A stretch of 39,176 nt of DNA from Bacteroidota bacterium (GTDB lineage Bacteria; Bacteroidota; Bacteroidia; SXHM01), in the NCBI GenBank assembly GCA_947479755.1, contig CANKAM010000035.1, positions 1 through 39,176 on the forward strand, in the 5' to 3' direction. Positions within the stretch are counted from its first letter, which is position 1, and every line of letters begins with the position of its first letter. Below are positions 20,691 through 30,975 of the stretch, one piece after another. The notes under the pieces are model-generated. The model saw only the letters and a list, made by a program, of their open reading frames with translations. It had not been told where the DNA came from and made no database searches. Made by a program: the position numbers and the translations under genes.

Positions 20691-20799
20691 GGGGGTAAAA
20701 GTAGTTGGAATTTGGAAAGTTTAAGGTTGGAAAGTTGTTTCGGACAGCCTGAACAAGATTATTTACAGGAATGCCCCTATTTTGCATTATATGCATTTA

Positions 20800-20858
20800 A
20801 ACGGCAGAATGGCTTTTGATAGTCTCCAAAGCCAAAATGCCATTTTATTCGTGCCGTT
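20800..20858. repeat. Imperfect inverted repeat beside the 41-bp array
   Basis: AACGGCA (20800-20806) pairs with TGCCGTT (20852-20858), and inside them AATGGC (20808-20813) can pair with GCCATT (20839-20844), or GGCTTT (20811-20816) with AAAGCC (20828-20833). It lies between the aminotransferase start and the tandem array and may be another dispersed palindrome. Confidence 0.5.
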
Positions 20859-20875
20859 GTCAATTGGCTTTATCC

Positions 20876-21188
20876 GATTACCTCCGTAACCGTTACGGCA
20901 AGACTTTGTATTGTCCGATTGCCACCGTAACCGTTACGGCATGACTTCGGATTGTCGGATTAGCTCCGTAACCGTTACGGCAAGACTTCGAATTGACTGA
21001 TTGCCACCGTAACCGTTACGGCATGACTTTGCATTGTCGAATTACCTCCGTAACCGTTACGGCATGACTTTGTATTGTCGGATTACCTCCGTAACCGTTA
21101 CGGCAAGACTTCGGATTGTCGGATTACCTCCGTAACCGTTACGGCAAGACTTCGGATTGACGGATTAGCTCCGTAACCGTTACGGAGG
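20876..21188. repeat. Tandem array, eight copies of a 41-bp unit with palindromic core
   Basis: Copies start at 20876, 20917, 20958, 20999, 21040, 21081, 21122 and 21163, a constant 41-bp period. Each holds the invariant core CCGTAACCGTTACGG (CCGTAA/TTACGG arms around CCG). The 26 bp between cores are also conserved, with substitutions confined to a few positions (CAAGACT or CATGACT; GATTACCT, GATTGCCA or GATTAGCT). The last copy diverges after the core (GGAGGCAGTT). 41 bp is close to four helical turns, so the cores lie nearly on one face of the DNA. 41 is not a multiple of three and no frame through it looks coding. It lies between the aminotransferase start and the end of the reductase gene. 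Confidence 0.95.
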
Positions 21189-21228
21189 CAGTTGGCTTTA
21201 AGAAAAGCAGGTAAATTACATGCAGAAC

Positions 21229-25911: not shown

Positions 25912-25992
25912 GCGGATGTGGCGTAATGGCAGCCGCGCCAGACTTAGGATCTGGTGCCGAAAGGCGTGGGGGTTCGAGTCCCTTCATCCGCA
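25912..25992 (+). tRNA. tRNA-Leu (anticodon TAG)
   Basis: An 81-nt class II tRNA. The acceptor stem GCGGATG pairs with CATCCGC (25985-25991), with discriminator A at 25992. The anticodon stem CCAGA/TCTGG surrounds the loop CTTAGGA, giving anticodon UAG for CUN leucine codons. The long variable arm TGCCGAAAGGCGT and the T loop GGTTCGAGTCC are as expected for leucine tRNA. The 3' CCA is not encoded and must be added. Confidence 0.96.
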
Positions 25993-26010
25993 CAAAAAAT
26001 GACACAATTG

Positions 26011-30875: not shown

Positions 30876-30958
30876 GCCCGGGTGGCGAAATTGGCAGACG
30901 CACCATCTTGAGGGGGTGGCGCCTTACAGGTGTACGAGTTCGAATCTCGTTCCGGGCA
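30876..30958 (+). tRNA. tRNA-Leu (anticodon GAG)
   Basis: An 83-nt class II tRNA. Acceptor GCCCGGG pairs with TCCGGGC (30951-30957, one G-T), discriminator A at 30958. Anticodon stem CCATC/GGTGG (one T-G pair) around TTGAGGG gives anticodon GAG. Variable arm GCGCCTTACAGGTGT and T loop AGTTCGAATCT are normal. CCA is not encoded. Confidence 0.96.
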
Positions 30959-30975
30959 CAACAAATAAAATAACA

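Follow-up and report, generated by a model that had tools for sequence, protein, structure and literature searches.

The 41-bp tandem array found in the 39,176-nucleotide stretch of Bacteroidota DNA analyzed here (the window; G000:C35, from an assembly of 3.9 Mb in 112 contigs) belongs to a noncoding satellite family that is dispersed and confined to one genus. Across this family, the combination of a fixed repeat length with retained self-complementarity suggests a structural or protein-binding role at the level of DNA.

TRF identifies a single array in the window (20876..21185), with a period of 41 bp, 7.6 copies, 88% matches and 0% indels. The palindromic core of the unit, CCGTAACCGTTACGG, has eight exact matches at 41-bp steps, with starts from 20884 to 21171 (20884..20898, 20925..20939, 20966..20980, 21007..21021, 21048..21062, 21089..21103, 21130..21144 and 21171..21185), against a mean of 0.02 matches at ≤2 mismatches, both strands counted, in shuffled controls (n=100). 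The eight copies at an exact 41-bp period noted in a previous sequence-only reading are thus confirmed, but not as eight full units, since no family spacer follows the last core. The spacers are 26 bp long (the first, CAAGACTTTGTATTGTCCGATTGCCA, lies at 20899..20924 on the plus strand) and vary in the patterned way then described (CAAGACT/CATGACT; ACCT/GCCA/AGCT), with a mean pairwise difference of 0.18. Isolated single strands of the core form hairpins, with a 6-bp stem and a 3-nt loop in the first copy. All six frames are closed across the array, which falls within no long ORF. Genes being called as simple ORFs, its neighbors outside the element are a class-III aminotransferase (PF00202; 19494..20690) and a ketopantoate reductase, PanE/ApbA (PF02558, PF08546; 21229..22326). 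The array had been placed directly upstream of the former, and it does lie upstream, 185 bp from the start codon (left flank, 20691..20875); both genes, however, are on the minus strand and the array sits between them, 43 bp from the PanE/ApbA stop (right flank, 21186..21228). Elsewhere, the window carries two tRNA-Leu genes (25912-25993 and 30876-30959; anticodons tag and gag).

The core was held to be invariant and less variable than its flanks. Within the window array this is so, with 0/15 variable columns in the core versus 9/26 in the spacers, but the difference is modest (Fisher p=0.015) and tandem homogenization can mimic conservation. In the rest of the family the letters of the core do change, and in the G000:C49 array the core is as diverse as the spacers, owing to a switch between AA and GG variants. 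The swaps preserve the palindrome (AA..TT to GG..CC, G..C to A..T, CC..GG to TT..AA), and this covariation supports the proposed constraint on the palindrome, more strongly than the window alone could show. Over 97 distinct units, core pairs are Watson-Crick in 92% of cases, versus 10-28% after a shift of the 3' partner by 1-3 bases; pairs 3, 5 and 6 lie above all 1000 shuffles, and a second Watson-Crick type is found at five of the seven pairs. Pairs 5 (A-T 57, G-C 35), 6 (A-T 54, G-C 36) and 3 (G-C 83, A-T 8) each occur in two forms, and at pairs 1 and 2 C-G becomes T-A; looseness is limited to the innermost pair. Paired changes are seen in several arrays and at several positions, although related units are not independent, so that counts of covariation exaggerate how many events took place. 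The first units of the C49 array, for instance, carry CCGTAACCGTTACGG and the last ones CCGTGGCCGCCACGG, and the AA/GG variants occur there in blocks, which points to few events instead of many. Imperfect core pairs favor neither strand (G-T 24, A-C 19; p=0.54), so the constraint looks DNA-level; an RNA hairpin specified by a single strand would not be expected to show similar frequencies of G-T and A-C. Two further arrays of the same genome are of related interest. One copy of a 42-bp array with nested palindromes (G000:C10:3276-3563, L311) changes CGTGTT..AACACG into CATGTT..AACATG, which is, on its letters, a compensatory change in an unrelated family, and along a 41-bp array at G000:C5:53488-53718 (L293) the palindrome moves from GTATGCA..TGCATAC to GTTTGCA..TGCAAAC.

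The genome search argues against a single conserved functional site, which the sequence-only reading had considered, and reveals instead a dispersed family with copy numbers of 3 to 17 at shared loci. At least five arrays of the family are present in G000 (C18, C24, C35, C49 and C3), all of them noncoding. This genome has 27 exact matches to the core, all inside four arrays and at 41-bp steps throughout (C18, 8 units; C24, 10; C35, 8; C49, 17). The fifth array (C3:1939-2234; L283, C3:1898-2226) has CCATAACGGTTATGG as its core, a two-unit period of 82 bp and longer palindromes, such as CCGTTGTAACCGTTACAACGG and TTCTCCTCCATAACCGTTATGGAGGAGAA. Since C18 and C24 have in common their left flank and a paralogous neighbor gene, one of these two arrays probably arose by segmental duplication, apparently of array and gene together; of the paralogs (L030:7358-8266 and L031:8216-9193), the one tested has no Pfam match.

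The order and family of the source organism are represented in our collection by seven genomes of one genus, four of which carry arrays. The window unit occurs in three of the six congeners and is absent from the other 388 of the 395 genomes sampled in the class. Among the matches listed in a pattern scan of public contigs, three records were relevant, all from congeners, and the rest were mostly chance GC-rich hits; searches among phages and viruses were uninformative, with one viral match. At the C49 locus, where flanks are common to four genomes, copies number 17 (G000:C49), 13 (G003:C191), 6 (G004:C86) and 3 (G005:C67), all of them minima because MAG assembly may collapse repeats. The G004:C10 array equals that of C18 unit for unit, and G003:C175, with the same left flank as C18, bears 16 units with GG..CC-type cores.

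At the window locus itself, G004, with an aminotransferase 99% identical, and G006 retain both neighbor genes, at most a few tens of bp apart and without an array, and a link between array and aminotransferase is not supported. In G002 both flanks are homologous, including the left flank and the terminal ATGCAGAACCTATATCCC.. of the right one, and between them lie ten units of a different 41-bp palindromic repeat, composed of TTGGCNAAATGCCAA and a 26-bp spacer. Arrays of this second family, also at 41-bp steps, are found at G000:C48, G002:C2, G003:C48 and G004:C4. Hence, the sequence of the unit differs between species at one locus while its length and palindromic design are the same, an arrangement that could stem either from replacement or from two independent gains. 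A spacer motif, TAATCC..TCCGAA, is common to the CCGTAAC and TTGGC families with weak significance (p=0.011) and is given no weight here. In the left flank in the window (20833-20870), CAAAATGCCA and TTGGC may be left over from an array of the TTGGC family, but they are out of the 41-bp register.

The claim that a 41-bp step would place the cores on nearly the same face of the DNA finds support at the level of the genus. At 10.5 bp per turn 41 bp amounts to 3.9 turns, so faces drift by about 35 degrees per copy, and exact phase is attained only at 10.25 bp per turn. The period is slightly below 2 x 21. We scanned 2.1 Mb with TRF (non-targeted 0.8 Mb of G002 and about 1.2 Mb of G000, plus targeted loci) and found periods near 21n in 57 of 66 noncoding arrays (G000, 38/44; G002, 19/22), with values of 21, 41-43, 63 and 82-84, versus a background of 20% obtained simply by counting integers. 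Without the four targeted loci, 34/40 arrays of G000 remain in phase. As 21, 42 and 63 are all divisible by three, we also took a narrower set of arrays closed in all six frames, and 15/18 of these are in phase (10/11 in G000 and 5/7 in G002; 6/7 and 5/7 without the four targeted arrays). A fixed period inside one array is automatic for tandem copies. No motif common to all arrays and no shared k-mer was detected beyond shuffles. Strong palindromes characterize the 41-bp families and some 42-bp arrays (C1:345, C2:115035, C9:57816), but no palindrome beyond shuffles was found in most 42-bp, all 63-bp and all but one of the 21-bp arrays, and the palindrome is therefore not a general feature. Co-directional, divergent and convergent gaps hold arrays in background proportions (17:10:5 versus 177:94:38). 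The 21n pattern may not be confined to this genus, because a non-genus control of only 228 kb yields five noncoding arrays with periods of 21, 21, 22, 28 and 46. One 21-bp noncoding array, of 12 copies, lies at G002:C1:56232-56487 (L229), and G002 contains many further arrays of 21, 42 and 63 bp.

Noncoding satellites of 22/44 nt were reportedly the subject of a 2020 paper by Subirana and Messeguer. These authors have described puzzling tandem repeats of bacteria whose size is constant while their sequence varies, with several families per genome and only partial conservation between strains, and have proposed that a constant repeat size may be required for a protein to polymerize on DNA (PMC8161180); a survey of prokaryote satellites is also available (PMC6749651), and their Bacillus satellites measure 20-21 and 52 nt (PMC8161180, PMC6749651). 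On the features tested, the window array belongs with these constant-size, variable-sequence satellites. Like them, it is a noncoding tandem repeat, and the arrays of its genus comprise unrelated families of one repeat size per genome, with lineage-specific sequences that are conserved in part and variable in length between relatives. Repeat sizes in the genus (21, 41-43, 63 and 82-84) accord with the 20-23 nt (or double) or 52 nt of the described satellites, although at about 21/42 and 41 they depart from the 52-nt class. Unlike those satellites, the genus also displays compensatory palindrome changes, several loci with one sequence family and one locus with different families in two species; a word search of PMC8161180 finds no mention of palindromes. 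The apparent novelty thus resides in compensatory palindrome evolution and in the occupation of one locus by different families at a fixed period.

Other known systems resemble the family less. CRISPR likewise combines a palindromic repeat with regular spacing, but the spacers of the window array are all slight variants of a single sequence, the repeat measures just 15 bp, the family diverges in core and spacer alike, and there are several loci; no cas gene is found among the five proteins around the array, which match other Pfam families. Plasmid centromere and iteron arrays are helically phased tandem protein sites. The window family, in contrast, occupies multiple genomic loci and has no match among 72,556 plasmids, and no partition or Rep gene is found among the immediate neighbors of the window array.

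The reading we prefer, at a little short of an even chance, is that the palindromic, helically phased satellite offers a ladder of binding sites to protein on duplex DNA, with four-turn spacing. The intergenic arrays of the genus would keep a period near 21n (two helical turns), with their sequence free to change. A dimeric DNA-binding protein would find a symmetric site in each palindrome, the four-turn spacing would align these sites so that the protein could assemble along the array, and the assembled complex might be nucleoid-structuring or DNA-bridging. The arrays, in turn, would expand and contract in whole 41-bp units by slippage or unequal recombination. A protein ladder of this kind would explain why the period is conserved across unrelated sequences.

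A serious, if somewhat unlikely, competitor is a neutral minisatellite with no function, generated by slippage or unequal recombination and with palindromes perfected by hairpin template switching (quasipalindrome correction). Template switching yields paired changes without selection, and a neutral origin accounts, with no need of a protein, for these changes and for the lability of copy number. It is also consistent with the two congeners that have no array at the window locus and with the many in-phase arrays without palindromes, but it leaves unexplained both the periods near 21n common to unrelated arrays and the substitution-free core of the window array beside its varying spacers. Quite unlikely is a transcript of the array whose RNA hairpins would serve as small-RNA source, RNA sponge, transcript stabilizer or terminator. 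Hairpin formation by the isolated strands and the transcription of some bacterial satellites (PMC8161180) would accord with it, but strand symmetry and position disfavor an RNA function: G-U-type pairs lack strand bias, gene ends are not preferred and the neighbor genes manage without the array in congeners, while no Rfam match was obtained for the array, a tRNA being the only hit in the window at gathering score.

We regard as distinctly improbable a REP/BIME-like element mobilized by a RAYT (Y1) transposase. REP/BIME are short extragenic palindromes too, and this origin looked likely at C18, where a Y1/IS200-like (RAYT-like) transposase gene (L030:8848-9384), one of only two Y1 genes in the genome, lies at a distance of 85 bp. 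It fails at the other arrays, because the array at C18 is alone in having a Y1 gene beside it, with none at C24, C35 or C49, and that gene is adjoined by a different hairpin repeat of its own, GGCGCGAGCGTCCCGCTCGTGCC. Moreover, the copies are arranged head-to-tail in 41-bp arrays and not as singletons, there is no consistent transposase, and the GTAG and CGTC tags of REP (PMC3733652) are absent next to the cores in aligned units. An operator array regulating the adjacent aminotransferase is hardly credible in spite of its upstream location, because relatives without the array keep the genes, and other arrays of the family adjoin unrelated genes.

Why bacterial satellites unrelated in sequence should keep a fixed repeat length is a puzzle, and this genus amounts to a natural experiment on it, in which orthologous loci differ in copy number, palindrome letters or unit family while the period stays constant. 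CCGTAACCGTTACGG, CCGTGGCCGCCACGG and TTGGCNAAATGCCAA, all at 41 bp, provide specific sequences for telling protein-scaffold from neutral ideas. An unlikely variant is that a protein of the genus reads geometry and not sequence, recognizing hairpins or cruciforms every four helical turns, which would explain how one locus can vary in letters and families and still keep both the palindrome and the 41-bp step. If this were true, satellite arrays would represent a class of structural chromosomal element.
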